Source: Acidobacteriaceae bacterium (GTDB lineage Bacteria > Acidobacteriota > Terriglobia > Terriglobales > Acidobacteriaceae). From it: a stretch of 64,000 nt of DNA. The notes beneath the pieces were generated by a model. The model searched no databases. It saw only the letters and a list, made by a program, of their open reading frames with translations, and had not been told where the DNA came from. Shown here in pieces: positions 3,318-63,588 of this stretch. Within the stretch, counting starts at the first letter, position 1, and each line of letters starts with the position of its first letter. Location: positions 1 through 64,000 of the forward strand of contig JAJPKO010000055.1 of the NCBI GenBank assembly GCA_021323655.1. The letters run 5' to 3'. The position numbers and the translations under genes are program-made.

Positions 3318-3450
3318 GATTGCCATGTAAAAAACTGCGAGAACAGAGGCAAGAGCAGATGGCATGGCTGACCCCATGGTGAATCTGGGGATCATCTGCA
3401 CGCCGAATCGACCCCAGTCCATGCTTCCCCTGCTTCCCCGAAAGGAAGTC

Positions 3451-9813: not shown

Positions 9814-9865
9814 GCGGCGGAGGGATAGAACAACGCGGGCTGCGGGTGTCGGAAGCGAATACGAA

Positions 9866-10500: not shown

Positions 10501-10807
10501 CCGCGCTCTTCGGAGAGTACGATCGGCTCGCGGATGCGGCAGCTGCAAAGTAGGCCAAACGAAAGGGGCAAAGAAACGCGTGAAATCCCGCGATTCCTAG
10601 TTTGGGCATTTTTTTGGAAACCACAATCCGAAGGAGACCGAGTACGAGATGCGCGCTCACTCGTTTCTTCCGACAGCATAGTGGAACAATCAACTCACAT
10701 GGAGTGGAGGGCCCGCCCCCGGCTGTCCAAGAAAATCAGTGAAAAAGCGCGAAACACGAAGGTTCAGCGCAAAGTGCGAAGATCGACCATGCTGGCACGC
10801 CGAACGG

Positions 10808-11242: not shown

Positions 11243-11278
11243 CTCGGTCCGATGGTTCCGGCTGCCTAGCATGCTGAA

Positions 11279-11294
11279 AGCACAGCGCATGCCA
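11279..11294 (-). promoter_or_regulatory. Sigma-54 promoter driving 10808-11242
   Basis: Minus-strand TGGCATGCGCTGTGCT: GG-N10-GC with a TGGCAtG -24 box and GTGCT -12 box. The strong palindrome at 11390 lies 96 bp upstream. Leader of about 26 bases to the ATG. Confidence 0.75.
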
Positions 11295-11389
11295 AACGGA
11301 ACATCGGCGTCCCGTCACTACAAGCTCCTCATTTGAGAGAGAATTCTCTGTCCTCCCAATTGAGAAGCGAGAGGGCGCCTTTTTCCGGG

Positions 11390-20241: not shown

Positions 20242-21037
20242 AATCACGAGACAAGGAGTGAGGCTCATCTGCCAGATGAGCCTCACTGCAGCGGTTGCGT
20301 GGCTGTCTCCGGGGTTGGCGCCTGCGCAGACAGCGCCTGCGGTGCAACAACAGTTTGCGGGCATCGACGAATCGTTGATGCATCGGGCCGATGCTCTTCT
20401 TGCCGCTCCGGCAGTTGAAGATAAATCCGTGACAGGTACGCCGGCGAAAGAGGGAAGACCTCCAAGCCAAAGCGCCGCCAGCGCCGCAAATCCGCAAAAG
20501 GCGGATGGCCGTAAGGGGAGTACCGCAGCCCCTCGGCTAGAGCAGTGGCGGCCACTGGTCACGCCTATCCTCCAGGACGAAGGTGTCCCTCCTGAACTCG
20601 CCGCAGTAGTCCTTGTAGAGAGCGGCGGTAATCCGGCAGCGCTTTCCTCGAAGGGCGCCCGCGGCCTCTGGCAACTGATGCCCGACACCGCACGCCGATA
20701 CGGGCTGTCCGTCGATGGCATAGTTGACGACCGGCTGAACGCAGAGAAGTCGACCCATGCGGCCGCCCGCTATTTGAGGGATCTCTATGTTCAGTTCGGA
20801 TCATGGCCTCTCGCACTTGCCGCCTACAACACCGGCGAGCAGAACCTCCAGCGGGCCATCGATCGAAGCCGAAGCAACGAGTTCTCCGTTTTGAGCGCTC
20901 TGGGCCTCGTGCCGCTCGAAACCCGAAACTACGTTCCGGCGGTCTTGACCGCCATGCAATTCACCGGCCGGCCCTTGGTTCCCGACGGCCGCCGCTCACC
21001 GATAACGAACATAGTCTTTGCTCTTGATGGCAATTGA
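20234..21037 (+). CDS. Lytic transglycosylase (SLT domain) within the Cus operon
   Basis: 267 residues from the ATG at 20234 (MHRITRQGV); the track start adds a Pro-rich tail from within cusA. Signal peptide [18 protein letters not shown], a low-complexity linker to about residue 100, then an SLT domain: catalytic Glu in [49 protein letters not shown] and [12 protein letters not shown]. It cleaves peptidoglycan glycan strands. Next to a trans-envelope pump it may open the wall for assembly of the complex, as secretion-system transglycosylases do; this is inferred from context. Confidence 0.82.
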
Positions 21038-21045
21038 GGGGATTT

Positions 21046-21585
21046 ATGGGACATTCCCGCATCAAATCGAAACATGCCGTTGCCCGGCAACACCATTGGT
21101 ACTCCCACTGGCCCCTATGGGTATTGTTTGGAGTCTTCGCGGCATTGATAAGTATCAGCTTCATACAGATGTACCGCAGCTACGGACCGCAGAAGAGCGA
21201 TACTCCGTCCGTTGTCCTTGCAGCCGGGCAGGATCTTCACATCGATCCTGCGAAGTTGAAACCTGCAGAACTGCATCTGTTCGAAGGAAGCGCTTCAGGG
21301 CAAAAGGTGAAGTTCATCGTGCGGCGGACTCAGGACAATGTTGTTCACGTCTCGCTAGGCACCTGCCGTGTTTGCTACAAGTCGAAGAACCCTCATTATG
21401 TCCAGAAGAACGAGATGATGTGCGGCGAATGCAATATGCCGATGAGATCCGAATCGGAGAAGGGAGCGCCGGGTGACACTCGCTGCACGCTCCCCGAGAT
21501 TCCACACACGGAAACGGGTCACGACATCACTGTGTTGATCCGCGATGTCCTGGCTCAGGCAGCAAAAGTCTCCGGCAAAGGATGA
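21046..21585 (+). CDS. DUF2318-like membrane-anchored metal/Fe-S protein
   Basis: 179 residues from the ATG at 21046; the listed start is a TTG four codons earlier. One membrane helix (WPLWVLFGVFAALISISFI), then a periplasmic domain with the DUF2318 signature: VSLGTCRVCYKSKNPHYVQKN followed by MMCGECNMPM. Paired CxxC motifs separated by about 15 residues are predicted metal or cluster ligands. DUF2318 proteins accompany cation-transport and iron/copper acquisition genes. Here it lies between a transglycosylase and a PCYCGC-type protein in the copper operon. Confidence 0.65.
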   Translation: MGHSRIKSKHAVARQHHWYSHWPLWVLFGVFAALISISFIQMYRSYGPQKSDTPSVVLAAGQDLHIDPAKLKPAELHLFEGSASGQKVKFIVRRTQDNVVHVSLGTCRVCYKSKNPHYVQKNEMMCGECNMPMRSESEKGAPGDTRCTLPEIPHTETGHDITVLIRDVLAQAAKVSGKG

Positions 21586-29766: not shown

Positions 29767-29783
29767 ATGCACTCTGCGTGCCA
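29767..29783 (-). promoter_or_regulatory. Sigma-54 promoter for the 29732-28805 unit
   Basis: Minus-strand TTTGGCACGCAGAGTGCAT: perfect TGGCACG -24 box, GG-N10-GC, GTGCA -12 box. Enhancer 107 bp upstream. Confidence 0.85.
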
Positions 29784-29889
29784 AATGAAACTCCTTGCGG
29801 ATGTCGGAATTTCGGACCGCAAGTGGCTCGTCAGAAGAGAGATATGCGCAGCGGCACATACTTCAGAGAGGGCGGCTCAACTTCGGCGT

Positions 29890-36400: not shown

Positions 36401-36417
36401 GTGCACTCATCGTGCCA
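36401..36417 (-). promoter_or_regulatory. Sigma-54 promoter for 35960
   Basis: Minus-strand TGGCACGATGAGTGCAC: perfect -24 TGGCACG, GG-N10-GC and GTGCA. Predicted leader of about 30 bases. Confidence 0.85.
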
Positions 36418-36522
36418 AATCTTGGTTGGGTTCGGTTTAAGAGGTAAGTTCGTAAGTGGCTCATATCAAGGGGCATACATAGCGCGACGAAAGGGGCGGA
36501 GGTTTTCAAGATTGCCGCTCGT

Positions 36523-38592: not shown

Positions 38593-38608
38593 TGCACGTC
38601 CTGTGCCA
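38593..38608 (-). promoter_or_regulatory. Sigma-54 promoter for 38298
   Basis: Minus-strand TGGCACAGGACGTGCA: GG-N10-GC with TGGCAC and GTGCA boxes. 84 bp from the strong palindrome. Confidence 0.8.
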
Positions 38609-38691
38609 AAGGGTTGCGGTAGGATTTGGGTTGATAAGGCTTGAAAATCAATGAGTCAGCTCATTCTTCAGCAGCCGAAGATCGTTTGCAC

Positions 38692-38729: not shown

Positions 38730-38845
38730 AACAGCAGTGGCTGTAGGGGGACCACTATCGCGAGGTGCGGGAATCGGCAGGAATCTGCTTCTACCGCTCT
38801 CGAGGTCCTGAATGGCATCCCGCGTGCAGTGCTAAAATCGCGCTC

Positions 38846-39955
38846 GTGAGGACATCGGCAAAAGACTGGCAGCGCGCGGCAATTCTGGCAGCGGCAATCG
38901 CGGCCGTGGCGTTGCTGCACTACCACACACCGGTAAGCCACGTATGGATCCACCCACTGTTACAGCGGGCATATTACATTCCGGTTTTGCTTGCAGCCTT
39001 ATGGTTTGGCTGGAAGGGTGGCTTAGCAGCGGCAACTCTGGCGGGAGCCTCCTATATTCCGCACATTATGATGGCGTGGAATTTCGAGCCTCAATACAAA
39101 GCCGCCCAATACATTGAGATCGGAATGTTTTTTGCGATTGCGGCTCTCACCGGCGTGCTGGCAGATCACGAGCGCGCTCAGCGGCATAGGGTCGAGGAGA
39201 CTGCTCGCCGGCTGAGCGAGGTGTATACGCAATTGCAAAAGTCATTCGAGCAACTCCGTCGCGCAGACCGCATGTCCGCGTTAGGGGAGCTGTCGGCAGG
39301 ACTCGCACACGAGGTTAGGAACCCGCTCGGGTCCATCGAGGGCGCAGTCCAAATCTTGGGACGCCGCGATCTGGAAGAGAATACGCGTCAGGAATTCACG
39401 GAGATGGCCTCGCGAGAGGTCGTGCGGCTAAAGGGGCTGCTTACTCACTTCCTCGAATTCGCGCGGCCACAACAGCCGCGCGTCGTCGCGTCGGACATGG
39501 AGTTGTTGCTTCACTCGGTGGCAAAGCTGGCAAGTGAAACAGCAAAGATGGCACAGGTCGAGATCCTGGTTGAGTCAGAGTCAACTTTGCCCCAAGTACC
39601 GATTGACCCGGAACAGATCAGGCAAGTGCTCCTGAACCTTGTCATCAATGCGGTGCAGGCTATGCCGAATGCCGGCCAGATCCGATTGCGTGCAACTCAT
39701 GAGGGAGAGAATATTCGCATCGAGATTGAGGACCAAGGTGTTGGCATCCCTGCGGATGACGTGGAAAGGATCTTCGACCCGTTCTTTACGACTCGCGACA
39801 ACGGAACAGGACTTGGCCTTTCGATTGCTTACCAAATTGTGAGCCAGCACGGCGGGCATATCGCCGCAAAGAGGAACCCGGAACGCGGCATGACGTTCAC
39901 AGTGACACTGCCATTGGCGGCGAGCGCTGCTGAGCCGACTCTCGCAAGGAGCTAA
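38846..39955 (+). CDS. NtrB/ZraS-type membrane sensor histidine kinase
   Basis: 369 residues from a GTG at 38846; the longer GTG start at 38765 is possible. The N-terminus has three to four membrane helices (AAILAAAIAAVALLHY, YIPVLLAALWFGWKGGLAAATL, IEIGMFFAIAALTGVLA) with short loops. A coiled coil (RLSEVYTQLQKSFEQLRRADRM) then leads to HisKA with phospho-acceptor His in LAHEVRNPLGS (about residue 156), and HATPase_c motifs NLVINAVQAMP, DQGVGIPAD and GTGLGLSIAY. It senses a signal in or at the membrane and phosphorylates the adjacent NtrC-type regulator. The ligand is unknown. Confidence 0.88.
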   Translation: MRTSAKDWQRAAILAAAIAAVALLHYHTPVSHVWIHPLLQRAYYIPVLLAALWFGWKGGLAAATLAGASYIPHIMMAWNFEPQYKAAQYIEIGMFFAIAALTGVLADHERAQRHRVEETARRLSEVYTQLQKSFEQLRRADRMSALGELSAGLAHEVRNPLGSIEGAVQILGRRDLEENTRQEFTEMASREVVRLKGLLTHFLEFARPQQPRVVASDMELLLHSVAKLASETAKMAQVEILVESESTLPQVPIDPEQIRQVLLNLVINAVQAMPNAGQIRLRATHEGENIRIEIEDQGVGIPADDVERIFDPFFTTRDNGTGLGLSIAYQIVSQHGGHIAAKRNPERGMTFTVTLPLAASAAEPTLARS

Positions 39956-41368
39956 ATGGCGAACGAATTGATTCTCGTGGTCGACGATGACGCCAGCCAG
40001 CGGCGGCTGGTTGAGTTCTGGCTGAAGGAAGCGGGGTACACCGTCGTCACGGCACCGGATGGCCGGGCCGGTCTCCTGACGTTTACGGAAAAAAACCCCG
40101 CACTCGTGATTGCTGACATCCGCATGCCTGGGCTCAGCGGCCTCGATTTGCTTGGCCGCATCAAGGCCCTGAACGCGGATACGCCCGTCATTCTGATCAC
40201 CGCCTTCGGCACCGTCGGTGATGCCGTGGATGCAATGAAACTGGGTGCGGCCGACTACGTCCTCAAACCGCTCAATGCGGACGAACTCAAAGTCAACGTT
40301 CAGCGCGCCCTGGAACACCGGCAGTTGGTGGACGAGAACCGCTATCTTCGCGATTTCAGCGATACGGCGTTCCGGTTTGAAAACCTGGTGGCCGGCTCAA
40401 AAAGGATGCGCGACGTCTTCAATCTCGCGGCACATGTCGCGCGCCGCGATTCCACGGTTCTCGTTACCGGAGAATCCGGCACAGGCAAGGAACTGATCGC
40501 GAAGGCCATTCACCAGAACAGCCTTCGTGTTTCGAAGCCGTTCATCACGGTGAACTGCGGGGCCATTCCCGAGAGCTTGATTGAATCGGAGCTGTTCGGC
40601 CACCGCAAGGGATCGTTCACTGGCGCCGTCGCCGATCGCGTGGGTAAATTCGAAGCCGCAAACGAAGGCACGGTTTTTCTCGATGAGGTGGGAGAGCTTC
40701 CTATCAATCTTCAGGTGCGCCTGCTGCGCGTGATTCAAGAGCGCGAGATCGATAAGATTGGCTTTCCGAAGCCGATAGCCGTAAATGTGCGCATCATTGC
40801 GGCGACGAACCGGGACTTGCGCACGCAGATTGAGGACGGCCAATTCCGAGAGGACCTCTTTTATCGTTTGAGTGTGGTGACCGTGGAACTGCCGCCCTTA
40901 CGCGAGCGGCGGGATGATGTTCCCCTGCTGCTGACTCACTTTCTGAAGAAGCACTGTTCTCGGTATCAGCTGCCTTTACCATCGATCAGCGACGGCGCGC
41001 TGGAAATCTTGACTCGCTATGACTGGCCGGGAAACGTCCGGGAGTTGGAGAATGTCGTCGAGCATGCGGTTGTGCTTGGCGCTTCAGAAACGATCCGAAC
41101 CGAAGATTTGCCGGCCCACATGCGAAATGCAACATCCCGGATCAGCTCCATCAGCCTCAAGTTGCCCGACGAGGGGATCGACCTTGAGGGAGTGGAGAAG
41201 GAGATCCTGTTGCAGGCTCTTGAGAAGAACCAGTGGAATCAGACACGGACTGCGCGGTATCTGAACATCAGCAGGAAGACGCTTATTTATAGGATGGAGA
41301 AGTTCTCTCTCATACCGACGGCATCCTCCAAACCGCAGGTCGACGAAGAGGGTGAGCACGTCTCCTGA
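39956..41368 (+). CDS. NtrC-family sigma-54-dependent response regulator
   Basis: 470 residues, starting directly after the kinase stop. Receiver domain with acidic DDD, phospho-acceptor Asp in IADIRMPG (about residue 54) and conserved Thr/Lys. AAA+ domain: Walker A GESGTGKE, sigma-54 contact loop GSFTGA (about 219-224; the usual sequence is GAFTGA, so Ala is Ser here), and FLDEVGEL Walker B. C-terminal Fis-type HTH NQTRTARYLNISRKTLIYRMEKF. It activates sigma-54 promoters from upstream sites and is the best candidate to bind the TGCCnnAWWTnnGGCA palindromes. Confidence 0.92.
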   Translation: MANELILVVDDDASQRRLVEFWLKEAGYTVVTAPDGRAGLLTFTEKNPALVIADIRMPGLSGLDLLGRIKALNADTPVILITAFGTVGDAVDAMKLGAADYVLKPLNADELKVNVQRALEHRQLVDENRYLRDFSDTAFRFENLVAGSKRMRDVFNLAAHVARRDSTVLVTGESGTGKELIAKAIHQNSLRVSKPFITVNCGAIPESLIESELFGHRKGSFTGAVADRVGKFEAANEGTVFLDEVGELPINLQVRLLRVIQEREIDKIGFPKPIAVNVRIIAATNRDLRTQIEDGQFREDLFYRLSVVTVELPPLRERRDDVPLLLTHFLKKHCSRYQLPLPSISDGALEILTRYDWPGNVRELENVVEHAVVLGASETIRTEDLPAHMRNATSRISSISLKLPDEGIDLEGVEKEILLQALEKNQWNQTRTARYLNISRKTLIYRMEKFSLIPTASSKPQVDEEGEHVS

Positions 41369-49830: not shown

Positions 49831-49926
49831 CTCAATCTCCTCACTTCGCATTTCACCGGGTTGTCAGGCGTATTTCGCCTCGGCACTTTCCATGTCCACC
49901 CTTTCACCCGATGGGGAGTTGTTCTC

Positions 49927-51411
49927 ATGAGCAGTCGACGAACCTTCATTCAAAAGGCGCTGGGGCTTGGCGCCAGCGTGTTTGCTACTTCAAAGCTATC
50001 GGCCGAAACGTCGGGCCGGCCAGCCTCGCGCATCGCTCGGAGCAACAACCGAAATCGAGACGCGGCCTTCAATATGCCTGTCGTGACCACCGATATTGGC
50101 GATCTGCCGTTCACGATGGACGGAAACGTCAAAGTTTTTCGGCTCGTCGCGGAGGTCGTAAGGCAGCAGATCAATCCGATGAAGTCCATCGATGTTTGGG
50201 GCTTCAATGGCAGCGCGCCGGGACCGACCATTCAAGTGAACCAGGGCGATCGAGTCCGCGTGGTCTTCGAGAACCATTTGCCCGAGCCAACCTCGCTTCA
50301 TTGGCACGGCTTCGAAGACACGATCCCAAACGACGGAATGCCGGGCATCAGCCAGCCGCCGGTCAAGCCCGGTGGCCGCTTTGTCTATGAATTCGACATC
50401 CATCAGGAGGGCACCTACTTCTACCACTCGCACATGGCAATGCAAGAGATGGCGGGCATGCTCGGCGGTTTCATCATGCACCCCAAGGAGCCGTATCGCC
50501 CGCATTGCGACAAGGACTTCCTGATTCATTTACAGGAATACGCGGTCCTGCCCAGCAACACCGTTCCCAACACCATGAACATGGAGTTCAACTGGTTGTT
50601 GTTTAACGGTAAAGCCGGCCCGGCCACCACGCCTCTGATTGTGAGGTTGGGTGATCGCGTGCGCGTTCGCTTCGTAAACCTGGGTATGGATCACCATCCA
50701 ATGCACCTGCATGGGCACACGTTCTATGTGACGGGAACGGAGGGCGGGCGTATTCCGGAAGGCGCCTGGTGGCCTGGCAACACCGTGCTTGTCGGCGTGG
50801 CGCAAGCCCGGGCAGTCGAGTTTGTGGCCAACAATCCCGGCGACTGGATGCTGCACTGCCACCTGCCGCACCACATGATGAACCAGATGTCTTCGGTTGC
50901 CGGAAAGATGACGCGTTCGATGGGTATGCCCGCGGGAGGCGATATGAACACCGGCATGGGGATGCTGCAGGGCGAACCTGGCGCTCCTCTCGGTGAGGAC
51001 TATGGCCCCACGCTCGGCCGCGGTCTTGGCGGGGTCGGGAACACGACGGATACCTCAACCACGAATGGCCCTCTCTCGCAACAGAAGGCGATGGACGCAA
51101 TGCCTGGCATGCAGCACGACATGGGCAACATGCAGATGGACCAGATGTCGCCGGACGACATCGCAAAGAATGCGAACGACGTCCCAAACTTTCCGCAGGA
51201 CGCTTACATGGAAGGGCCAATGATGGCAATGGATGGCGCCGTTGAACGGCCCGAGAATTATGGCCTGAATGCGGGCTGGAGCGGGTTCATGCAGGGAATG
51301 ATGACCTTTGTCCGCGTGCTGCCGCCCGACAAATACGACGAAGTGATTTCGCGCATGAAGAAAGCCAACCGTCCGCATGATCCCTATACTGCCATTCTGG
51401 AGCGTGCCTAA
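49927..51411 (+). CDS. Tat-exported multicopper oxidase (CopA/PcoA-like)
   Basis: 494 residues from the ATG at 49927; the twin-arginine signal SRRTFIQKALGLGASVFA then sits at the N-terminus. All four copper motifs are present: LHWHGFED (about 125), YFYHSHMAMQ, HHPMHLHGHTF and the T1/T3 motif HCHLPHHMMNQM with an axial Met. The C-terminal extension is Met-rich (MGMPAGGDMNTGMGM; MPGMQHDMGNMQMDQM), as in copper-resistance oxidases that convert Cu(I) to Cu(II). Overlaps the efflux gene by one base. Confidence 0.9.
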   Translation: MSSRRTFIQKALGLGASVFATSKLSAETSGRPASRIARSNNRNRDAAFNMPVVTTDIGDLPFTMDGNVKVFRLVAEVVRQQINPMKSIDVWGFNGSAPGPTIQVNQGDRVRVVFENHLPEPTSLHWHGFEDTIPNDGMPGISQPPVKPGGRFVYEFDIHQEGTYFYHSHMAMQEMAGMLGGFIMHPKEPYRPHCDKDFLIHLQEYAVLPSNTVPNTMNMEFNWLLFNGKAGPATTPLIVRLGDRVRVRFVNLGMDHHPMHLHGHTFYVTGTEGGRIPEGAWWPGNTVLVGVAQARAVEFVANNPGDWMLHCHLPHHMMNQMSSVAGKMTRSMGMPAGGDMNTGMGMLQGEPGAPLGEDYGPTLGRGLGGVGNTTDTSTTNGPLSQQKAMDAMPGMQHDMGNMQMDQMSPDDIAKNANDVPNFPQDAYMEGPMMAMDGAVERPENYGLNAGWSGFMQGMMTFVRVLPPDKYDEVISRMKKANRPHDPYTAILERA

Positions 51412-53021
51412 TGCCCAGACAGAGAACGACAATTCCGATATTCACACTTGCGATTGTGATCGCTTTCGGCACGCCAGTGTTGGCGCAGAACCCCGGATCT
51501 TCACCCTCGCCGCAGAGCAAGTGCATGGAGGGCATGGTCATGCCGGGATGCCCTCAGCCAACCAAGAAAGAGCAACCAAATACGAAGCAGAATATGCCCG
51601 GCATGCAGCACGAACGGCACGACATGGGAAATATGCAGACGACCGTGCCTCAGCTGCCGCAGGGTCCGGATACTCATGCCACGATGACGTTGCAGGAACC
51701 CGAAGAGACGGAGCACAAGACGGGATCCAACCTGCCTGCTCCGGAACTTCTAAAGGACGTCGCGTCGCGGCCGGCGATGTCTCTCGCGAACTTTCTCGAA
51801 CTCGCCGATCAAAACAACCCCACGCTTAAAGAAGCGAATGCCCTTGTCCGCCGCTCACAGCAGAAGGCGCGCCAGGCTGGCCTGTATCCGAATCCCTCCA
51901 TTGGATATCAGGGTGAGCAGATCCGTGGTGGTTCTTATGGGGGCGGCGAGCAAGGCGCCTTTGTGCAGCAGACCATAGTACTGGGCGGAAAGCTGGGACT
52001 CCGGCGCAACATTCACGAGCAGGAGATGCGATCGGAACAGGTCGGCGTCGAAGAACAAACCTATCGGGTCCATGCCGACGTGCAACAGGCATTTTACGAT
52101 GCGCTGGCCGCTCTAACCACGGTACATCTACGCCAGCAGTTACTTGGCCTTGCGCTCGACGCAGTAGAAACTGTCCATCAACTGGCCAATGTTGGACAGG
52201 CAGATGCGCCGGACATCCTGCAGACAGAGGTCGAGGCTGAGCAGGCCAAGGTTGATTACAGCTCCGCGCAGCGGGAGTATCTCAAGACCTTCCACGTTCT
52301 GGCTGCACTTGCAGGAAATAGTGATCTCGCCGTCCGCTCACTTGATGGCGATCTGGAGAAGACACCCGATCTCAATACAGAGCAGATGCTGGAATCGGTC
52401 GTTACTCAAAGCCCTACCGTGAAACGGGCGCGCCAAGAGATCGTCGTTGCTCAAGCGCGCCTGAAGGACGCGAAACGCGAACCCATTCCCGACCTGCAAC
52501 TTCGTGCCGGCGAGCAGTACAACGGAGAACATGTGAGCGAAAACCCGCTCAAGCCAACAGGAGCGCAGAGTTTTGCAAGCGCTAGCATCAATCTTCCTCT
52601 CTGGAACCGCAACCAGGGCAATGTGCAGGCCGCCAGAGCTGAAATCGAACGCGCGGAACAGGATCTCGCTCGCGAACAGCTATCGCTTCAACAACAAGCG
52701 GCGCCGATGGCCCAATCGTATGAATCCGCGAAGTTCGAGGCGGACCGCTACAAGACGCAGCTCATTCCACGCGCGACACGGGCATATGAACTGTATCTGA
52801 AGAAGTACCAGAGTATGGCTCAAGCTTATCCTCAGGTGCTCGTCTCCCAGCGGACGCTCTTCCAATTGCGGGTCAGCTATGTGATGGCTCTCCATGAGGA
52901 ATGGCGCAATGCGATAGCGCTCCAGAACTACATGCTGAACGGCGGGCTGCACGCTCCAGTATCGAGCGACACTCCGAGCACAACCATCAATCTTCCCAAT
53001 GCCAGTGGGGCACAGGAGTGA
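51411..53021 (+). CDS. TolC/CusC-like outer-membrane efflux protein with Met/His-rich N-terminus
   Basis: 536 residues. Signal peptide IPIFTLAIVIAFGTPVLAQ, then a metal-ligand-rich linker (CMEGMVMPGCPQ, NMPGMQHERHDMGNMQ) before the OEP domain (LANFLELADQNNPTLKEANALVR; RARQEIVVAQARLKDAKREPIPDL; NVQAARAEIERAEQDLAREQ). No cognate inner-membrane pump is adjacent, so it may serve with the multicopper oxidase as PcoB-type outer-membrane partner or borrow a Cus pump. Cotranscribed with 49927. Confidence 0.8.
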   Translation: MPRQRTTIPIFTLAIVIAFGTPVLAQNPGSSPSPQSKCMEGMVMPGCPQPTKKEQPNTKQNMPGMQHERHDMGNMQTTVPQLPQGPDTHATMTLQEPEETEHKTGSNLPAPELLKDVASRPAMSLANFLELADQNNPTLKEANALVRRSQQKARQAGLYPNPSIGYQGEQIRGGSYGGGEQGAFVQQTIVLGGKLGLRRNIHEQEMRSEQVGVEEQTYRVHADVQQAFYDALAALTTVHLRQQLLGLALDAVETVHQLANVGQADAPDILQTEVEAEQAKVDYSSAQREYLKTFHVLAALAGNSDLAVRSLDGDLEKTPDLNTEQMLESVVTQSPTVKRARQEIVVAQARLKDAKREPIPDLQLRAGEQYNGEHVSENPLKPTGAQSFASASINLPLWNRNQGNVQAARAEIERAEQDLAREQLSLQQQAAPMAQSYESAKFEADRYKTQLIPRATRAYELYLKKYQSMAQAYPQVLVSQRTLFQLRVSYVMALHEEWRNAIALQNYMLNGGLHAPVSSDTPSTTINLPNASGAQE

Positions 53022-54196: not shown

Positions 54197-55086
54197 TCAT
54201 TTGCCCCTTATTTTGGCAATCACTCTAGCGGGATTTAGCTTTGGCAGATTGATGTCCAGTTGCGTACTCAACCTCCAACTTCCATTCAGGTCCTTGTCAT
54301 TAAAAAAGGTGGGACCGACCAGAAGACTAATGTCGCTGGTGAAATAGTAGTAGAGACCGCCCCCGGCCGCGCCCAGGGCATTTTTGCCCGACTGGTAGTC
54401 TGCTGCGAAGACAACCTTGCTGTATTCTACTGAGCCATCCTTGCCCGTCACCGGGACAAATGAGTGGTCGAATGCCGTCATAAAGCCGACGTTCTGGTAC
54501 TTGCCGTCGCTCGAGATGAGTGCTGCATGATTACCCATGTATGGCCCAGCCGACACCCGCCCAACCTTTGGGATTGTCTTACCGATTACCGCGTAGGCAA
54601 CGTCGTAATCCAAGCGCGATTCGCCTGGCTTGAGGTCGAATTTCTTGCCCGCACAGAATACGCCAATTTCGAGAGCAGGCTGATACTTGGAGTATGAGCC
54701 TTCTGGGGTGCCGAACTTTGCGTTAAAGAGCCACGGGTGAGGAGTGTTTGCGAAATAGTCGATACCGGTTTCCATTTGGAATTTCCTGAAAGGAAGTACA
54801 CCGATGGTTGGCGAGGTCATGTCTGTTGGGAATGCCGCATTCGAATTTGTGACCGGCGTACTTAGTCGGAAATAGTTGTCAATTCCCAGGTGAAGGACTC
54901 CATAAGGCTGAATATCTTGGGTCATTAGAGTCCAGAACGTTGTCGAAGGGTAGCAAAAGCGACGCGCCCCGCAGCCAGCGAAATGGCGACGATCGCAGTC
55001 AGTGTTCCTCGCATCATCACCCGCCTCGTCAATTGACGATTAGCGATCCTTGTCAATACTGAAAGAGTCCGGAATAAACGAGCCAT
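54197..55086 (-). pseudogene. Outer-membrane beta-barrel-like protein gene split by a frameshift
   Basis: The ATG at 55086 (AAAGGA upstream) opens a frame with a signal peptide (RGTLTAIVAISLAAGRVAFA) that ends at a TAA. In another frame the sense continues YPSTTFWTLMTQDIQPYG and runs to 54197 as 242 residues of alternating strands (LHLGIDNYFRL, LNAKFGTPEGSY, LDYDVAYAVIGKTI, VVFAADYQSGKNALGAAGGG). One frameshift near 54955 therefore separates signal and barrel. It may be a pseudogene, a sequencing error or programmed. Function of the intact family is unknown. Confidence 0.55.
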
Positions 55087-55513
55087 CTGGTTGTCCTTTC
55101 CTGGAAAAGTATTTGAGCTGCAACGACACGTTTTCACCGCATGAGTGGTTTGTCTCCACGGATGCAGGGACTCGTTTTGAAACAACACGACGCCTAAGGG
55201 CGGATCAGGCTAATCACCGCGCATGCGTGCCGCATTGTCTTTTCGAGGAAGTGTGGCGAGGAGCTCTAACACCACTGTTGCAAAAGGAACATCAGGATGA
55301 TATGAGGATCATGGAAGAAAGTTGCTCATTATAAATGATTTAGTGAACATGCGCGTGTGATAATCACAAGATACAAAAACAACTCCACTCGGTCGGGGAC
55401 AGACCGTCGCTTGCGACATCCAGATAGATTCAAGAGGCTCCGTAGGCACTGCACCGGAGTCCTTGGAAGCGGATGGAATCACACGATTCGCGTCCGCCCC
55501 AAGCTATCGATGG
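55087..55513. other. Intergenic region with one palindrome
   Basis: About 430 bases with no supported gene. It holds TGTGATAATCACA (55356-55368), a perfect 13-bp palindrome whose half-site spacing does not fit a CRP operator. Confidence 0.4.
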
Positions 55514-56128
55514 CTACTTCAGTGTGAGCAAATACGTCACGAGGGTGTCGAGATCTTTCGCCGGAACATCCATTGGCGGCATCGTGCTCCCGGAAGGTGG
55601 CGACACGATGAGTTTCTTCAGTTCTTCGACAGTCCTCTTGCTTCCAATCCCGTCAAGCGCGGAAGCGGTATTGCCGGCGCCTGCCACCGAGTGGCATGAC
55701 GAGCAACCGTAAGACTCGAACAACTGCTTCCCGGCAGCGACAGGTGAAGAACCTGAAGTTGCGCCAATGGCTTCACGTGCAGCCGCTTTACGATGGATTT
55801 CGTCATACGCGAGGAACTTCGCGATCTGGTCCGCTTCTCGGCTGTTGAAATGAGAGCTCGCCATTGCCTGCATTTGTTTGACAACAGCCGTCCACTGCGC
55901 GGCAGACAGGCTGGGTTTCAGACTGGTGTCAAGGGTATGGCACATACCGCATTTCGCCTTAAAGGTTCTGTATGCCTGGTGTATTTCCGGCGGGAGGTCG
56001 GACTGGTTGATCTGGATGGTTTCTCGGTTCTGCGTGAATTGAGCGTTCGCTGGTCGCGCACCGGCCAGCCAGAGCAATCCGACCGCTGCGAATCCTAAGA
56101 AAGCAGACTGAATTGAATACCTGTTCAT
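55514..56128 (-). CDS. Secreted diheme cytochrome c
   Basis: 204 residues. Signal peptide FLGFAAVGLLWLAGARPANAQ. Two heme c sites: CGMCH (about residue 60, in FKAKCGMCHTLD) and CSSCH (about 141, in YGCSSCHSVAGAG), each followed by a helical segment and possible axial Met (SGSTMPPMDVP). Gene order puts it 18 bases after the cytochrome-porin gene, so the two form an operon and probably an electron path: the periplasmic diheme protein would accept electrons from the fused porin. Confidence 0.85.
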   Translation of the reverse strand: MNRYSIQSAFLGFAAVGLLWLAGARPANAQFTQNRETIQINQSDLPPEIHQAYRTFKAKCGMCHTLDTSLKPSLSAAQWTAVVKQMQAMASSHFNSREADQIAKFLAYDEIHRKAAAREAIGATSGSSPVAAGKQLFESYGCSSCHSVAGAGNTASALDGIGSKRTVEELKKLIVSPPSGSTMPPMDVPAKDLDTLVTYLLTLK

Positions 56129-56146
56129 GGTCTTATCGCTCCTTTG

Positions 56147-57454
56147 TCAAAAGTTGAATGAAATGTCCGCTTGAAACAGCTTGTCGGTGCCCTTGACCGC
56201 CCCAACCGGATCGCTGCCCGCCTGGCTACTGTAAGCAATTCGCCCGATGATGTTGCCCGATTCGGTCAGAGTCTTATTCATGCCAATTGTCCAGTCATGA
56301 AGATTCTGCTTGCCGACCCCTCCGACCCCAGTTATTTGCTGGTTCAGTCGGTCAAAGCGACCTGAAAAAGCAAATCCTTGCCAGACGTAATAGTCAGTAG
56401 CGACGTAATAGTCGTTTCCAACGAAGTTTCCGAACGGCCCTGTTGCTGCGAACGCCCACCCGTCGTGACTGTGCAAATAGCCTGCCAAAACGTCGACCTT
56501 CGACTTGAACATGTAATTTCCGAAAACGCCTTGCCGTCGAATGACTGGGTGGAATGTGAACTGAGCGCCAGTCGGATCAGTATTGACGTTGTCTTTTTTC
56601 CCGTAGTAGCCCAAGTACGTGATACCGCTCTCTGGCGCGTACCAAAAATCCACATCGGCCCAAACGTCCTTAGAGTTCCGATTCGATGAGGTCAGAATCT
56701 CACTTCCATCTGCGTTAACTCCATTGGTCACTTTTGCTGTAGCAGCGAATACTCTCTTGTAACCGCTCGACGCCCACGTGTAGCCGGCGTCAACTCCAAC
56801 CGGAGACTGATCAACGACAAAGTTGGTTGCACTAGGATTTTCAAGCAGTAGGGGAGAGTTCGGAAGCAGGCTGTACACTTGAGCGGCGCGAGTCCCTTCT
56901 CCGATTTGCAAGTGCTCGCGACCTCCGGCGAGATACCAACTGCTATCGGCCCGGCCCCCGCTATACCCAAAATATGCATTGGAGAGGTCGGGATTGGTTG
57001 ATCCTCCTGTCACAATGTCGAACTCGCTGTAGTAGAAGAAATTGGTATCCGGAATCCAGCCGCCGAAATACGCGTTCCATGAGCCTACCTGAAATGATGA
57101 GGTCGAGCTCGGTGGCGTACCCTCACTAGTAGTTCGCTCTGCAGTGTAGCTGAAATCGGTGACCGCCAAAGAAGCGTTATTTGTCAGTGACCATTCCCGT
57201 TCTTTCTGAACCAGCTGGGAGATTCTGTCGGCCGCTTTGCCTTGCTCCAGAGCTGGAGGCAGATGGAAACCGAGCCTCTTGAACATGTATCCCTGCTCGT
57301 TCAGCACCGGAACAATCGTGTGGCACGCGGAGCATTTGAGATTGTAGCGGCGGGCAAACTGAGGGACGGCGGACGCCTGGCGTGGCATGAAAACAGCCAG
57401 CAGCGATACGGCGGCGCAAAATAGAGAGACGACACGGCTTCGCGAAATCACCAT
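56147..57454 (-). CDS. Cyc2-like fused cytochrome c-porin
   Basis: 435 residues. Signal peptide VSLFCAAVSLLAVFMPRQASA. Directly after it comes FARRYNLKCSACHTIVPVLN with a single CxxCH heme site, then EQGYMFKRLGFHLPP. This order (P-x-FARxY, CxxCH, P-x-LNxxGxxFKxxG) is that of Cyc2-type fused outer-membrane cytochromes. The rest alternates about 14-18 amphipathic strands (WNAYFGGWIPDTNFFYYSEFD; FNF end). In iron oxidisers Cyc2 transfers electrons from extracellular Fe(II). Here the donor or acceptor is unknown. Sigma-54 promoter 56 bases upstream. Confidence 0.7.
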   Translation of the reverse strand: MVISRSRVVSLFCAAVSLLAVFMPRQASAVPQFARRYNLKCSACHTIVPVLNEQGYMFKRLGFHLPPALEQGKAADRISQLVQKEREWSLTNNASLAVTDFSYTAERTTSEGTPPSSTSSFQVGSWNAYFGGWIPDTNFFYYSEFDIVTGGSTNPDLSNAYFGYSGGRADSSWYLAGGREHLQIGEGTRAAQVYSLLPNSPLLLENPSATNFVVDQSPVGVDAGYTWASSGYKRVFAATAKVTNGVNADGSEILTSSNRNSKDVWADVDFWYAPESGITYLGYYGKKDNVNTDPTGAQFTFHPVIRRQGVFGNYMFKSKVDVLAGYLHSHDGWAFAATGPFGNFVGNDYYVATDYYVWQGFAFSGRFDRLNQQITGVGGVGKQNLHDWTIGMNKTLTESGNIIGRIAYSSQAGSDPVGAVKGTDKLFQADISFNF

Positions 57455-57509
57455 GAACTCCTTGTCTGCACTCCCGCAGGAGTGTTTAGTTCATTCTTGA
57501 CTTACGTCG

Positions 57510-57525
57510 GGCACGTCAGAGGCCA
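57510..57525 (-). promoter_or_regulatory. Sigma-54 promoter for the cytochrome-porin operon
   Basis: Minus-strand TGGCCTCTGACGTGCC: GG-N10-GC with TTTGGC and GTGC. 73 bp from the strong palindrome and about 45 bases of leader. Confidence 0.7.
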
Positions 57526-57597
57526 AACGGCAGTTCGAGGACCGATGCGGATAAGTCGTGCATATCCATCAAATGCAGCTTCTGCACCTACTCGGGC

Positions 57598-57656: not shown

Positions 57657-58013
57657 CTAGATGTGGAGAATACAAAGCGAGAGTCGCACGCGCTCAAGCG
57701 CACGTTCACCTCGCAATACCGCATGGGCGTTTCTGGCTAAAGTCACGCGAGGCTGCGGATCGACCATGACATCGGCGCGCGTGTCCAGACTTAGTGAGTT
57801 CGGCGATTTTCCCGGACTAGCAGGAGACATGGGCGAGGGGAGACTCACCTTGCATGTGTTCGCCGCGCCGAAATGACCGCCATCAGCGCGGTGAACCCCT
57901 CCTGCTTTCGACATCGCCATCATTGGGCAGTCCGGCCTGCAACACCCGCCCACGATTGCTCCGTGAGCACAAGGTGCTGAGTAGAACAAGGGAACCACCC
58001 CGATCAGGAGCAC
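57657..58013 (-). CDS. Secreted Cys-rich small protein (12785-like)
   Basis: 118 residues from a GTG; the hydrophobic run continues upstream in frame (VKCWSKFVASLVV), so the true start is unclear. Signal-like LLIGVVPLFYSAPCAHG, then GCCRPDCPMMAMSKAGG, sharing the CPMM core of 12785. One further Cys (NTCKVSL) and a long Pro/Ser tail. Periplasmic soft-metal binding is inferred. Its 3-prime end is 23 bases from the enhancer pair. Confidence 0.45.
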   Translation of the reverse strand: MLLIGVVPLFYSAPCAHGAIVGGCCRPDCPMMAMSKAGGVHRADGGHFGAANTCKVSLPSPMSPASPGKSPNSLSLDTRADVMVDPQPRVTLARNAHAVLRGERALERVRLSLCILHI

Positions 58014-58105: not shown

Positions 58106-58319
58106 GGCGCTTCGCCCCTTGTATCTAGACGGTTTCTGCGATTAGGCGCTGTAAATCCGGGATGCACAAGAATGTCCCGCGCAAAATGCTCGGCAGCAGG
58201 CAAAGGCCGGGCTCGTCTGACTTGCCGATCGCAGCGACCTCCAAAGCCATCGTGTCTTACTGGGATCTGTGCGATTGCAGTTTTCTTTCGAAGATATAGA
58301 GGTTGTCGACGCAAATTTG

Positions 58320-58675
58320 GAATTCATCATGGATTGCACTCTCGTCGCCATCAAGGAGCCATCGGACTGGAGGCCGGCATCCACGATCACGAGTATCCCA
58401 TTCGCCATCGCGCTCATGCTCGTGCCATCGAAAACCGTGGAAGAGTTGGTCATGAACGTGAAGGTCTGGGCCGCCAGCATCGAGGTCATCGTGAAGGAAC
58501 TGCCTGACACGCTGGCGACTGATCCCATCATCTGTTGGATTCCGCCGTTTGCCGGATCCATGGCATTTCCTGATCCCTGAGTCCCGGATGTGACGTGAAA
58601 GACGGGATTCATGGTTAGATTGCCGTTCGTACCCATCGTTACTGAACTGGCTAGATTGAGATCGAAGTCCATGGC
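58320..58675 (-). pseudogene. Duplicated fragment of the Met-rich lipoprotein gene
   Basis: From DFDLNLASSVTMGTNGNL to TRVQSMMNS the minus-strand product is nearly identical to residues about 170-285 of the 3451 lipoprotein (HVTSGTQGSGNAMDPANGG is exact). The copy lacks the signal peptide, N-terminal domain and C-terminal 200 residues, and then runs into unrelated sequence within the 58142-58765 ORF. It is a truncated second copy, probably not functional. Confidence 0.75.
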
Positions 58676-58804
58676 GATATTGCCCGAAGGGTTGTAAAGG
58701 TTGCCCAACGAACGACAAAGGAATCGAACGAATAGACTGCCGCTTTTAAAGGGCCAGTAAAGCAACGGGAGCGAGGAATTTGATCTGCATGTGAACGGAC
58801 TCCT

Positions 58805-61800
58805 TTACAGTGACGTGTGGACAGCGGAATCATTGTGGGTTGGGTTTGAGTTCTCATCGCGAGGAGCCAGTGTCCCTCGTTTTATCGCCCGCTCTTTCAT
58901 CATCACGAAGAAAACGGGCACAAGGATGAGAACGTGGATAGTCGAAGTGATCATGCCTCCAACGATGGGAGCGGCAATTGGCTTCATGACGTCTGAACCG
59001 ATCCCCGATTCCCAGAGGATCGGGACAAGGCTCGCCAAGACGGCACTAACGGTCATCAGCTTGGGCCGCAAACGTTGCACGGCGCCTTCGATCGCTGCGG
59101 CCTCTACGTCGGCATTGGTCAAAGTCGCTCCGGAATGCAGCTTATGATCCAACGCCTCATGGAGATACACCACCATAACCACGCCGGTCTCCACTGCAAT
59201 CCCAAACAGAGCAATATAGCCGACCGCCACGGCGACGCTGAAGTTGTACTTCAGCAGCCACTGCAGGAGCAGCCCTCCGCTCATCGCATAGATGGTAGGA
59301 AAGATAAGAACGAGCGCCTCCGTGACCGAATGAAAGACCAGATAAAGCAGCAGGAAGATCACAAAAAAAACAACCGGAAGGATCAGGCGAAGCCGTTGCT
59401 TGGCGCGCAGCTCAAGTTCATACTCACCTGACCAATGAAACGAGTAGTTTGCAGGCAGCTCAATCTTTTCATGAAGGAGCTTGTCCGCTTGGGCAACGAA
59501 ACCCCCATAGTCCGTGTTTTTGAGATCGATGTAGATATAACCCGTGAGTGCGCCGTCCTCGTCACGAATCATGGCGGGGCCGTGGGTGAACGATGCTTTC
59601 GCCACCTGTCCGAGCGGAATCTGCGCTCCCGAGGGAGTTCCAATGAGAACGCTTCGCATTCGCTCTGCATTGTCACGGAAATCTCTCTGGTAGCGGACAT
59701 TGATGGGATAGCGTTCGCGGCCCTCGATGTTTTCAGCGATGTTCTGTCCACCGATACCGGACTCCACAGCGGTCTGCACATCGGCGATCGTCAGGCCATA
59801 GCGAGCGGTTTCGTCCCGGTTGACATCAACGTTCACGTAAAAGCCCTGCGCCACTTTCTCTGAAAAAACAGAACGTACCTGCGGAAGTCCCGAGAGCGCG
59901 TTCTGAATCTGCGAGGCAAGCTGCTGAATGCCGTCGACGTTCGCGCCCTGTACCTTCAGCCCAAGGGGCGTTTTGATGCCGGTCAGTTCCATATCCAGGC
60001 GGTTCTCAACCGGCATCGTCCAAGTGTTCGAGAGTCCGGGAAACTGCAGCTTCTCATCCATTTGCTGAATGAGAGTGTCGTATGTCATCCCTGCGGGCCA
60101 CTGCTCCCGCGGCTTCAGCATGACGGTGGTGTCGTACATATCGAGTGGCGCGTTGTCGGTCGCACTGTCGGAACGGCCCACGGCGCCAAAGACACTCGCC
60201 ACCTCGGGAAAAGAGCGAAGGATCCGGTCCTGTTCCTGCAGAAGCACCTTGGCCTGTTCGATGGAGATCCCGGGAAGCGCCGTTGGCATGTACAGCGAGG
60301 AACCCTCGAATAGCGGCGGCATGAACTGACTTCCCAGTCGCAGTGCGAGTGGAAACGTCACGATCAGGAAGATCACGTTGACAGCGATGGTCAGCCAGCG
60401 AAAGCGCAGACAGAACTTCAAAATCGGCAAATAGATGGCTTGCGTTATCCGTGAGATTGGGTTCCGCTGCTCCGGTCGCAATCTGCCACGGATCAGTATC
60501 ACCATCAGTACCGGGACCAGCGTGATGGCAAGAATCGAAGAGGACCCGACCGCTAACGTCTTGGTCCACGCAAGCGGCCGGAACATGCGTCCTTCCTGCG
60601 CTTCAAGAAGAAACACCGGAAGGAAGGACACAACAATGATCAACAACGAAAAGAAGAGCGCAGGACCGACCTGTTTCGCTGCGCCAATGAGAATTCGTCG
60701 ACGTTCTGGCTCCGAGACTGGCCCCTGACCATGTTCCTGGCGCTCGGAGAGATGACGATACCCGTTCTCGACCATCACAATCGACGCATCCACAAGTACG
60801 CCGATTGCAAGTGCAAGGCCGCCAAGCGACATGATGTTCGACGTCACGCCCAGCCAGTACATGGGGATGAAGGAGACGAGCACCGCGATCGGGAGAGCGA
60901 GAATGGCTATCAGCGCGGATCGGAAATGGAACAGGAAGACGATGATCACCAGGCTCACGATGATCGCCTCTTCCAGCAAATCGCGCTGCAGCGTTTTGAT
61001 CGAGGCTTCAATCAGCTCTGAGCGGTCGTATCCGGGCATGATCTGAACGCCCGGAGGAAGCGAAGGCGCGACCTCATGGAGCTTCCGTTTGACGGCGTTA
61101 ATCACTTCAAGAGCGTTCATGCCCTGACGCATGACAATGATGCCGCCAACGGTCTCACCCTCACCGTTCCATTCGGCAACACCTTCGCGAATGTCCGGAC
61201 CGAAGCTCACTGTGCCAAGGTCGCGCAGCATGACCGGTGTGCCGTTCTTGCTGCCGACCGCAACTTTGCCGAGATCGTCGAGAGAGCGTAGATAGCCAAG
61301 TCCGCGAATCATGTACTCTGCGCCGCTCAGGTCGAGGAGGCGCCCGCCGACTTCGTTGGTGCTCATCTTTACTTTGTCGATGACCGTGGAGAGCGGAATG
61401 TCATAAGCCAACAACTTATTCGGATCGAGCTGCACTTGGTATTGCCGAACAAAGCCCCCAATGGTCGCAACCTCGGCCACTCCGGGAACAGTTTCGAGGG
61501 CGTAGCGGAGATGCCAGTCCTGCAAGCTGCGCAAGTCGGCAAGACTTTGCTTCCCGCTCTTGTCCACAATTGCGTACTCGTAGACCCAGCCGGCCCCGGT
61601 TGCGTCGGGGCCAATGACCGGATGGACGTTTGTCGGCAATTTTCCGCTGATCTGCTGTAGGTACTCGATCACCCGCGAGCGCGCCCAGTAGAGGTCCGTG
61701 CCATCTTCGAATACGACGTAGACGTAGGAGTCCCCGAACATTGTCTGGGCACGGACCGCTTTCACATGCGGCGCGGCCAGTAGACTGGTAACAATTGGAT

Positions 61801-61999
61801 ACGTGACCTGATCTTCGATCACATCCGGCGGCTCGCCTTCCCAGCTGGTGTGGACGATCACCTGCACGTCCGAAATATCCGGCAGGGCATCAAGCGGCAC
61901 GTGCTGCAGTGACCAGATCCCGGCGAGCGTCAACAACAGAACAGCGGTGAACACAAGAAATCGATTGTGCGCGCAAGCTTCAATGACTCTTGAGAGCAT
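58805..61999 (-). CDS. cusA: Second CusA-type heavy-metal RND pump
   Basis: 1064 residues, typical HME-RND length. N-terminal PLDALPDISDVQVIVHTSW and EDQVTYPIVTSLL; TM4 motif GGLALAIGVLVDASIVMVENGY; second half ending AVETGVVMVVYLHEAL and RLRPKLMTVSAV. It is only distantly similar to the 16933 pump, and the RND/adaptor/channel order differs, so this is a separate acquisition rather than a local duplication. Forms an operon with 61999 (one-base contact) and 63585. Confidence 0.92.
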   Translation of the reverse strand: MLSRVIEACAHNRFLVFTAVLLLTLAGIWSLQHVPLDALPDISDVQVIVHTSWEGEPPDVIEDQVTYPIVTSLLAAPHVKAVRAQTMFGDSYVYVVFEDGTDLYWARSRVIEYLQQISGKLPTNVHPVIGPDATGAGWVYEYAIVDKSGKQSLADLRSLQDWHLRYALETVPGVAEVATIGGFVRQYQVQLDPNKLLAYDIPLSTVIDKVKMSTNEVGGRLLDLSGAEYMIRGLGYLRSLDDLGKVAVGSKNGTPVMLRDLGTVSFGPDIREGVAEWNGEGETVGGIIVMRQGMNALEVINAVKRKLHEVAPSLPPGVQIMPGYDRSELIEASIKTLQRDLLEEAIIVSLVIIVFLFHFRSALIAILALPIAVLVSFIPMYWLGVTSNIMSLGGLALAIGVLVDASIVMVENGYRHLSERQEHGQGPVSEPERRRILIGAAKQVGPALFFSLLIIVVSFLPVFLLEAQEGRMFRPLAWTKTLAVGSSSILAITLVPVLMVILIRGRLRPEQRNPISRITQAIYLPILKFCLRFRWLTIAVNVIFLIVTFPLALRLGSQFMPPLFEGSSLYMPTALPGISIEQAKVLLQEQDRILRSFPEVASVFGAVGRSDSATDNAPLDMYDTTVMLKPREQWPAGMTYDTLIQQMDEKLQFPGLSNTWTMPVENRLDMELTGIKTPLGLKVQGANVDGIQQLASQIQNALSGLPQVRSVFSEKVAQGFYVNVDVNRDETARYGLTIADVQTAVESGIGGQNIAENIEGRERYPINVRYQRDFRDNAERMRSVLIGTPSGAQIPLGQVAKASFTHGPAMIRDEDGALTGYIYIDLKNTDYGGFVAQADKLLHEKIELPANYSFHWSGEYELELRAKQRLRLILPVVFFVIFLLLYLVFHSVTEALVLIFPTIYAMSGGLLLQWLLKYNFSVAVAVGYIALFGIAVETGVVMVVYLHEALDHKLHSGATLTNADVEAAAIEGAVQRLRPKLMTVSAVLASLVPILWESGIGSDVMKPIAAPIVGGMITSTIHVLILVPVFFVMMKERAIKRGTLAPRDENSNPTHNDSAVHTSL

Positions 62000-63588
62000 T
62001 ACATCCCTCCTGTCGCGTTTACGCGCAGTTGTCTCGTCGCGAGGGTTTGACCATTCTTCTGGACCGTAATTGTGACCTGCCAGGTTCCACCAGAATCTAA
62101 CCGTCCGTTGCCCTCATACAGACCGTTGCCTTTGTCGGCGAGTTTGGCAGTCGTGTTCATTGCTGCCATTCCCATGGCCGGCATCGCAGCCATGTAGAAC
62201 GTGACCGTCACCTCAGCTCCAGCGACGGGAGTTCCATCCGCCCCCGAAAGCTTTACGTGAAACACATTGTTTCCTTTCTGCGGCGGATTGGGATCCGTCG
62301 TGAACTCGATGGCCGCTTTTGCCGCCGCAGGGGCATTGGGTTGGGGTGCATTGGCCCCGGCGCCGGGTGGAGGCGGCGCAAACGAGCCCGCTGCCGACTG
62401 CAGTTGGCTCTCTGAGTCGATCAGGAAATTCGCAGACGTGACGATGGACTGATGCGGTTTGAGTCCCTTTAGCACGACAAACTGATCGCCAACTCGAGGT
62501 CCAACGCCAACCTCCTTCGGCTCCAGATTGCCGTTTCCCTGGTTCAGGAATATGAGTTGCCGCGTACCGGACTGGAAGACGGCTGATGCCGGCACGACCA
62601 ACTGGCGCCCCAGATTGGTCTTGAGGTCCACATTGATGAACATGCCGGGTTTCAGCTTGAGACCTGCGTTTGCGATCGCCAGCCGCACACGAACGGTGCG
62701 TGTCGCCATGTCCACTTGCGGGAGAATGTCTTCGATTCGTCCAGAAAAGGTCTGGCCGGGGTAGGAATCGACAGTAATGGCCGCAACGTCGCCCGGCTTT
62801 AACCGGCCGATGTCATCCTGGAAGATCTGGGCGTAAACCCAGACACGCGAGAGATCGGCAACCGTATAAAGTCGGGTTGACGGCTCCACGTACATGTTGG
62901 GCAGAGCATTCCGTTCCGTGATATATCCGCTCACAGGCGAGTTGATGGTGAGATCGGTAATTGGCTTGCCGTTCTCCTTCAGTTTCGCGATTTCGCTCTG
63001 CGGGATTTCCCATTGTTCGAGGCGCTGCTCGGCTGCCGATGACAAGGTTGCCGCTCCGGATGAAACCCCATCGACGCTGCTTGACTGCAGCAGCTTTTGA
63101 TTCTGCTGAGCCAGCAGATATTCCTGCTGAGTCGCAACCAGTTCGGGACTGTAGACCGTGAAGAGCGGTTGCCCCTTGCGCACAAATTGGTAGGTGGCGT
63201 TGGCGAAGACGTTACGGATATAGCCAGGGAACCGCACCTGCACATACGAGACAAGACGCTCGTCGATATCTACCGTGCCTGTCGCGCGAATGTCATCACT
63301 CAGCGTTTTGTACTCAGCCGTGCCCGTCGTCACGCCGATGCTTTGCATCCTCTCGGGTGTGAGCTGAACCGGCATAAGCTGCGTCTCAGCCTTTTGCTCC
63401 GACATGCTCGAAGTGGGCTTCTGGGCGTCAGCGGGTGGACCGCTTGCCGCTGGTTGCACATCCCCACCCATCGGTAAATTCGAATGTCCCCCGTGCTTCC
63501 CGGAGTACGAACGATAAGCGAGCGCGCCCGCAATCACAGCAATGACTGCGAGCCAAACGAGTGAAGTTCTGATGACGTATTTGTTCAT
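61999..63588 (-). CDS. cusB: CusB-type adaptor with a C-terminal FixH/YtkA-like domain
   Basis: 529 residues. Membrane anchor LVWLAVIAVIAGALAY and a His/Met-rich linker, then MFP domains (VSYVQVRFPGYIRNVFAN, hairpin LVATQQEYLLAQQNQ, barrel VYAQIFQDDIGRLKPGD, QLVVPASAVFQSGTRQLIFL). The last about 110 residues form an extra beta sandwich (VFHVKLSGADGTPVAGAEVTVTF ... MPAMGMAAMNTTAKL ... TWQVTITVQKNG) like FixH/YtkA copper-linked domains. It lacks the HMBD repeats of the 14985 adaptor. Links pump and outer-membrane channel. Confidence 0.88.
   Translation of the reverse strand: MNKYVIRTSLVWLAVIAVIAGALAYRSYSGKHGGHSNLPMGGDVQPAASGPPADAQKPTSSMSEQKAETQLMPVQLTPERMQSIGVTTGTAEYKTLSDDIRATGTVDIDERLVSYVQVRFPGYIRNVFANATYQFVRKGQPLFTVYSPELVATQQEYLLAQQNQKLLQSSSVDGVSSGAATLSSAAEQRLEQWEIPQSEIAKLKENGKPITDLTINSPVSGYITERNALPNMYVEPSTRLYTVADLSRVWVYAQIFQDDIGRLKPGDVAAITVDSYPGQTFSGRIEDILPQVDMATRTVRVRLAIANAGLKLKPGMFINVDLKTNLGRQLVVPASAVFQSGTRQLIFLNQGNGNLEPKEVGVGPRVGDQFVVLKGLKPHQSIVTSANFLIDSESQLQSAAGSFAPPPPGAGANAPQPNAPAAAKAAIEFTTDPNPPQKGNNVFHVKLSGADGTPVAGAEVTVTFYMAAMPAMGMAAMNTTAKLADKGNGLYEGNGRLDSGGTWQVTITVQKNGQTLATRQLRVNATGGM

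Follow-up and report, generated by a model that had tools for sequence, protein, structure and literature searches.

A Cyc2-like fused cytochrome-porin and its diheme partner in an acidobacterial copper island: a putative outer-membrane electron conduit linked to sigma-54

A gene pair encoding a Cyc2-like fused monoheme cytochrome-porin (56147..57454(-)) and a periplasmic diheme c-type cytochrome (55514..56128(-)) is well supported as an outer-membrane electron conduit under sigma-54 control, and probably serves as a wire through which electrons pass between the surface of the cell and its interior. The pair was found in the first 64 kb of contig C26 (64,000 nucleotides, referred to here as the window) of a 4.59 Mb acidobacterial genome. 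The best explanation of the whole, which we consider rather probable, combines a Cyc2-like conduit, a diheme relay, a sigma-54 switch and the oxidation of a metal at the surface, set in a copper island.

The fused porin, its partner and the predicted fold

The porin ORF (435 aa) began with an ATG preceded by an AAGGAG ribosome site and was present as a single copy in its genome. The original prediction had described a signal peptide and a single N-terminal CxxCH in a P-x-FARxY...LNxxGxxFK context, and all of these were found in this frame. The signal peptide, as read from the sequence, covers aa 1-29 (57368..57454(-)) and ends in RQASA|V. It is followed by VPQFARRYNLKCSACHTIVPVLNEQGYMFKRLGFHLPPALE and then by about 340 barrel-like residues with NF at the end. 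The heme segment, aa 30-66 (VPQFARRYNLKCSACHTIVPVLNEQGYMFKRLGFHLP, 57257..57367(-)), holds the sole CxxCH of the protein, CSACH at aa 41-45 (57320-57334), in the context AVPQFARRY-NLK-CSACH-TIV-PVL with P31-QFARRY upstream. LNEQGYMFK was also present. Sequence searches of the porin against Pfam, NCBIfam and the PDB returned no significant match, and no library model covers it.

Reading of the ORFs confirmed that the diheme cytochrome (204 aa) starts 18 bases after the porin stop, and the ribosome sites of both genes are good. The two CxxCH motifs of the partner, CGMCH and CSSCH, occupy 55937-55951 and 55691-55705, and its second domain matched Cytochrome_CBB3 (E 4.9e-14).

AlphaFold2, run on 16 sequences, gave a low-confidence model (mean pLDDT 48, pTM 0.44) in which residues 94-433 form exactly 16 strands. 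The predicted 16-stranded beta barrel (aa 94-435, strands assigned by DSSP) corresponds to 56150..57175(-). The Foldseek matches of this model were 16-strand porins (OmpT/OmpU, E 2e-5; OprO, E 1.5e-3), and VIA-align over residues 82-435 gave Z 15.4 to Campylobacter MOMP and 13.7 to OprO, the structure put forward for Cyc2-PV1 by Keffer et al. (PMC8406198). The barrel of porin length that had been claimed is supported by this low-confidence model, in its predicted strands and in its matches to solved porins. The heme segment had a pLDDT below 40, too uncertain to place the heme inside or outside the barrel, and a rerun on mature sequences was poorer (pLDDT 39).

When 84,980 species genomes were scanned, 19 loci with relatives of the porin (51-79% identity) were recovered, all in acidobacterial MAGs; these and more distant loci are cited below by L numbers. 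In all 17 loci whose sequence extended far enough downstream, the diheme gene lay directly behind the porin. The arrangement is not a product of chance: the 19 relatives share the layout, and the diheme gene is there in every locus where it could be seen. Invariant residues of the porin included P31, A34-R35-R36, CxACHTI, P49, L51-N52 and G55, the invariance of P49 and L51 being read from 16 sequences. His64 (in HLPP) was near-invariant in the clade, with R in L016, and is missing from the outgroup (RMPP); our guess is that it may be a heme ligand or a metal site. All sequence relatives of the porin retained the heme motif, and the grouping with non-redox porins that had been named as grounds for abandoning the idea did not occur.

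The nearest full-length relative, L002 (79%), has a single 694-aa frame (9230-11311(+)) that joins the diheme homologue to further cytochrome c domains and to a NapC/NirT domain (E 3.5e-11), a quinone-linked cytochrome. This fusion is the clade's strongest single clue to a role as an electron conduit.

Relation to Cyc2 and to other conduits

Keffer et al. 2021 (PMC8406198) described Cyc2 by the motif AXPXFAR[Q/K][T/Y] closely preceding a CXXCH heme site, PXL four residues beyond that site, a porin of 16 strands and a length of more than 365 residues. The porin of the window has a signal peptide with a single CXXCH (CSACH), PXL four residues past it (P49 and L51, after TIV) and, in the low-confidence AF2 model, a fused porin of 16 strands within its 435 aa. 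These features are common to Cyc2 of clusters 1-2 (Acidithiobacillus, Mariprofundus PV-1), as are the upstream P-x-FAR and a periplasmic cytochrome downstream. The protein differs from them in having ARRY for AR[Q/K][T/Y], in a barrel lacking detectable sequence similarity, in its distant place in the tree, in a partner that is not cytochrome c4, and in its copper island and sigma-54 control. In AVPQFARRY it is an R that replaces Q/K, and most members of the clade have Y instead of F in the motif, whereas the nearest outgroup, L064/L068 (AIPAFARKY, ALPAFARKY), does conform to AXPXFAR[Q/K][T/Y].

Neither homology over the whole protein nor grouping in the tree united the porin with Cyc2. An hhalign comparison of the porin family with a Cyc2 profile gave E 7.5e-11, in an alignment of only 56 columns that comprised the signal peptide and the heme segment, and this profile-profile comparison found no match in the barrel part. 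The comparison set consisted of proteins with the published motif or close to it, from plasmids of Caballeronia, Ideonella and Methylocystis; the Caballeronia and Ideonella genes have a two-heme cytochrome gene directly behind them. Related proteins on plasmids of Paraburkholderia, Acidithiobacillus ferrooxidans and Polymorphobacter, two of them with a FAAQT variant, were also compared. A tree built from 69 fused porins showed the window's clade as monophyletic (100/100) and nested among acidobacterial FARKY proteins. FARQT-type Cyc2 was set apart in the same tree by a branch of 2.35, with barrel alignments that are unsure. Strict membership of Cyc2 is ruled out by the broken motif and the tree position, and we call the porin Cyc2-like, not Cyc2, because it departs from the published motif and because the FARQT group sits on a very long branch. 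Of the Cyc2 assignment in the original prediction, the layout stands, on the motif context, the profile match and the 16-strand prediction, but strict membership fails on the defining motif. Judged by its sequence, the porin is a member of a branch that a search with the published Cyc2 motif would miss.

Cyc2 cluster 3, the divergent part of the family, is likely to be kin of this clade, since a published study (PMC10654088) reports a connection between Cyt572 of Leptospirillum and homologues in acidobacteria; the likeness is drawn from that description. MtrCAB, MtoAB and PioAB have in common with the present pair an electron conduit through an outer-membrane barrel, here a predicted one. Their cytochromes are separate multiheme proteins and their barrel has 26 strands, whereas we found one fused heme and 16 predicted strands, and so no multiheme cytochrome inside a 26-strand barrel of the MtrCAB type. 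The nearest relatives outside the copper clade are acidobacterial FAR(K)Y fused porins beside Rieske and cytochrome b genes (e.g. L064, L065, L068), and full-length homologues in this wider clade were 28-41% identical. They are paired with a one-heme cytochrome that is a homologue of the diheme cytochrome's first domain, and bc genes adjoin them where the window's clade has copper genes.

Respiratory, copper and regulatory neighbours

Of 396 Acidobacteriota genomes, 112 contained a match to the porin family profile, in most cases via the heme segment within frames of 360-560 residues. Rieske and cytochrome b genes were found within the flank in 32 of the 60 fused-porin neighbourhoods that were fetched, against an expectation of about 1% each. 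At L065 the order was porin, monoheme cytochrome, Rieske and cytochrome b, the last two confirmed by Pfam, and ActB and bc complexes stood beside some of the porin relatives. The genome with the window has one NapC-type gene and two cytochrome b genes. The bc complexes, the NapC fusion and the periplasmic cytochromes in conserved neighbourhoods support the electron-conduit role first proposed for the pair. One of the clusters of fused cytochrome-porin, Rieske and cytochrome b genes that occur Acidobacteriota-wide, L081:9737-17994, also contained a GltD-like FAD/4Fe-4S protein (Pyr_redox_2, Fer4_20) and an 8-heme cytochrome. Similar loci were L084, L087, L088, L091, L092, L095, L102, L105 and L110.

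In the window the pair lies among copper genes. A CusA/CzcA heavy-metal RND pump (58805..61999(-); TIGR00914, 1097 bits) and a CusB/CzcB adaptor (61999..63588(-)) are on one side, and a multicopper oxidase (49861..51411(+)) and a TolC/CusC-type outer-membrane factor (51411..53021(+)) are on the other. A Cu ATPase, read by eye, is more distant (7201-9813). Closer to the porin are a small Cys-rich secreted protein (CC-x-P-D-CPMM; 57657..58013(-)), which had no Pfam match and has counterparts beside the porin in L002, L012 and L020, and a decayed copy (58142..58765(-)) of the DUF5666 lipoprotein gene 3364-4911; L005, L006 and L020 hold an intact one at this place, upstream of their porin. Homologues of CusA or the Cu ATPase were found in L002, L003, L004, L008, L012 and L016, and a CopA-type multicopper oxidase, read by eye, in L005 and L006. 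By hand tally, copper genes accompanied 9 of 10 well-flanked clade members and 7-9 of 50 distant fused porins (Fisher p 3e-5); as clade members share ancestry, this means that the cassette was kept, not that it has often arisen.

An outer-membrane barrel gene at 54197-55188(-) looks frameshifted, since its homologues in L005 and L006 (77-81% identical) each form one frame of about 300 aa. An FtrD-like iron-sulfur membrane protein (21034-21585(+)) belongs to a CusBA-lysozyme-FtrD cassette; such a cassette adjoins the porin in L003 and L012, and in L011 only the FtrD homologue does. Enrichment of Met, His or Cys, sought in the barrel as a sign of copper binding, was absent, and a copper-binding barrel was dropped as an argument. 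A literature search for a Cyc2-like protein with copper oxidation found nothing specific.

The proposed sigma-54 control draws its support from the relatives. At 11 loci (L064, L068, L070, L071, L078, L079, L080, L088, L096, L098 and L116), most of them with a kinase, a sigma-54 activator gene lay immediately upstream of the fused porin on the same strand; given how densely PF00158 genes occur, 0.12 would be expected. Of 72 upstream regions, 10 had a near-consensus sigma-54 site (p at most 0.005 each) at -65 to -111, where chance would give 0.4; L006 and L073 are one genome. Some loci are close relatives, so the neighbourhood p-values are overstated; the effect is still large. Near-perfect sites occurred within the clade itself in L005, L006 and L019, and L064, L070, L071 and L098 had both near-consensus sites and linked activators. 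The weak part of the claim is the window's own -24/-12 site, TTGGCCTCTGACGTGCC (57510..57526(-)), at -72 from the porin ATG. It is borderline by itself (p about 0.05 per upstream region) and was rejected as sole proof of control; its position is that of the near-consensus sites of the relatives.

The genome with the window has rpoN and 12 sigma-54 activators, and so has all the parts of a sigma-54 two-component system: an NtrC-family activator, a kinase and rpoN. The candidate regulators are a histidine kinase (38765..39955(+)), with an N-terminal membrane domain weakly resembling DUF4118/MASE1 and a 59% homologue in L004, and an NtrC-family activator (39956..41368(+)). In L004 the porin-diheme pair has a kinase and an activator about 2 kb behind it, and the best match of that activator in the genome with the window was 39956-41368 at 66%, the next being 55%. 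The window's own kinase-activator pair is 15 kb from the porin. Three near-consensus sites, TTGGCAC-N5-GTGCA, were noted near it, at 29768-29784(-), 36402-36418(-) and 38593-38609(-), and are possibly its regulon. The literature searched held nothing specific on a link between sigma-54 and Cyc2.

Direction of electron flow and substrate

We infer heme attachment and position, outer-membrane location and electron transfer. The single-heme segment, held by or near the 16-stranded outer-membrane porin, would exchange electrons with a metal ion at the surface, and the periplasmic diheme cytochrome would shuttle them to or from the inner membrane. The partner there would be a quinone-linked enzyme, which in relatives may be a bc complex or the NapC/NirT domain fused to the diheme cytochrome. 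The histidine kinase and the sigma-54 activator would switch the unit on. Since the clade's unit sits in a copper-efflux island, its likeliest job is the oxidation of a reduced metal at the surface, either Cu(I) exported by CusABC or Fe(II), with the electrons fed inward. The copper context and the Cyc2 precedent favour surface oxidation; the substrate and the inward direction are a guess with about even chances, and it counts against the inward reading that NapC and bc partners could equally send electrons outward. A more specific version, which we put forward tentatively, is a porin-type surface Cu(I) oxidase. A Cyc2-like conduit from respiratory bc operons would have been recruited to copper islands and placed under a sigma-54 switch, where it would detoxify exported Cu(I) and pass the electrons into the periplasm.

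Electrons might instead run from quinol through a NapC or bc-type enzyme, the diheme cytochrome and the fused porin to external Fe(III), Mn(IV) or humics. RuBisCO was looked for in the genome with the window and none was found, so Calvin-cycle lithoautotrophy is unlikely and was discarded as the context of the porin. The genome thus not being that of a Calvin-cycle autotroph, its one NapC-type and two cytochrome b genes, the L002 fusion, and the bc and ActB complexes adjoining relatives all allow electron export. We nevertheless regard this direction as somewhat unlikely, as those Cyc2-type proteins that have been examined biochemically oxidise Fe(II) (PMC8406198) and reduction of external Cu(II) would give the more toxic Cu(I), contrary to a copper-resistance island. 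The Cyc2 precedent suits a plain Fe(II) oxidase, whose copper neighbours would be adjacent only because metal-rich acidic habitats select both. Distant relatives that mostly lack copper genes yet have bc complexes, a barrel that is not Met/His-rich and the FtrD-like iron protein of some cassettes agree with such an oxidase. Copper genes beside nearly all well-flanked clade members, which are not independent, and their rarity beside others make it doubtful, to about the same degree as electron export. That the pair is no conduit, the heme being a redox-sensitive plug or periplasmic sensor that gates a metal or solute, accords with the short heme segment, the model's uncertainty about heme placement and closest folds that are general porins, but is improbable given the constant pairing with periplasmic cytochromes and the frequent quinone-linked complexes.

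The role of the divergent Cyc2-like porins (cluster 3) is the field's stated open question. Gene neighbourhoods now tie a whole clade that a strict motif filter would discard to copper efflux, quinone-linked enzymes and one class of regulator. These ties offer direct tests: induction by copper or iron, the metal oxidised and the direction of the electrons. The link between fused cytochrome-porins, Rieske/cytochrome b genes and sigma-54 kinase-activator pairs across the Acidobacteriota, which we did not find in the literature searched, suggests that electrons are commonly exchanged at the surface of these bacteria, which are abundant in soil.
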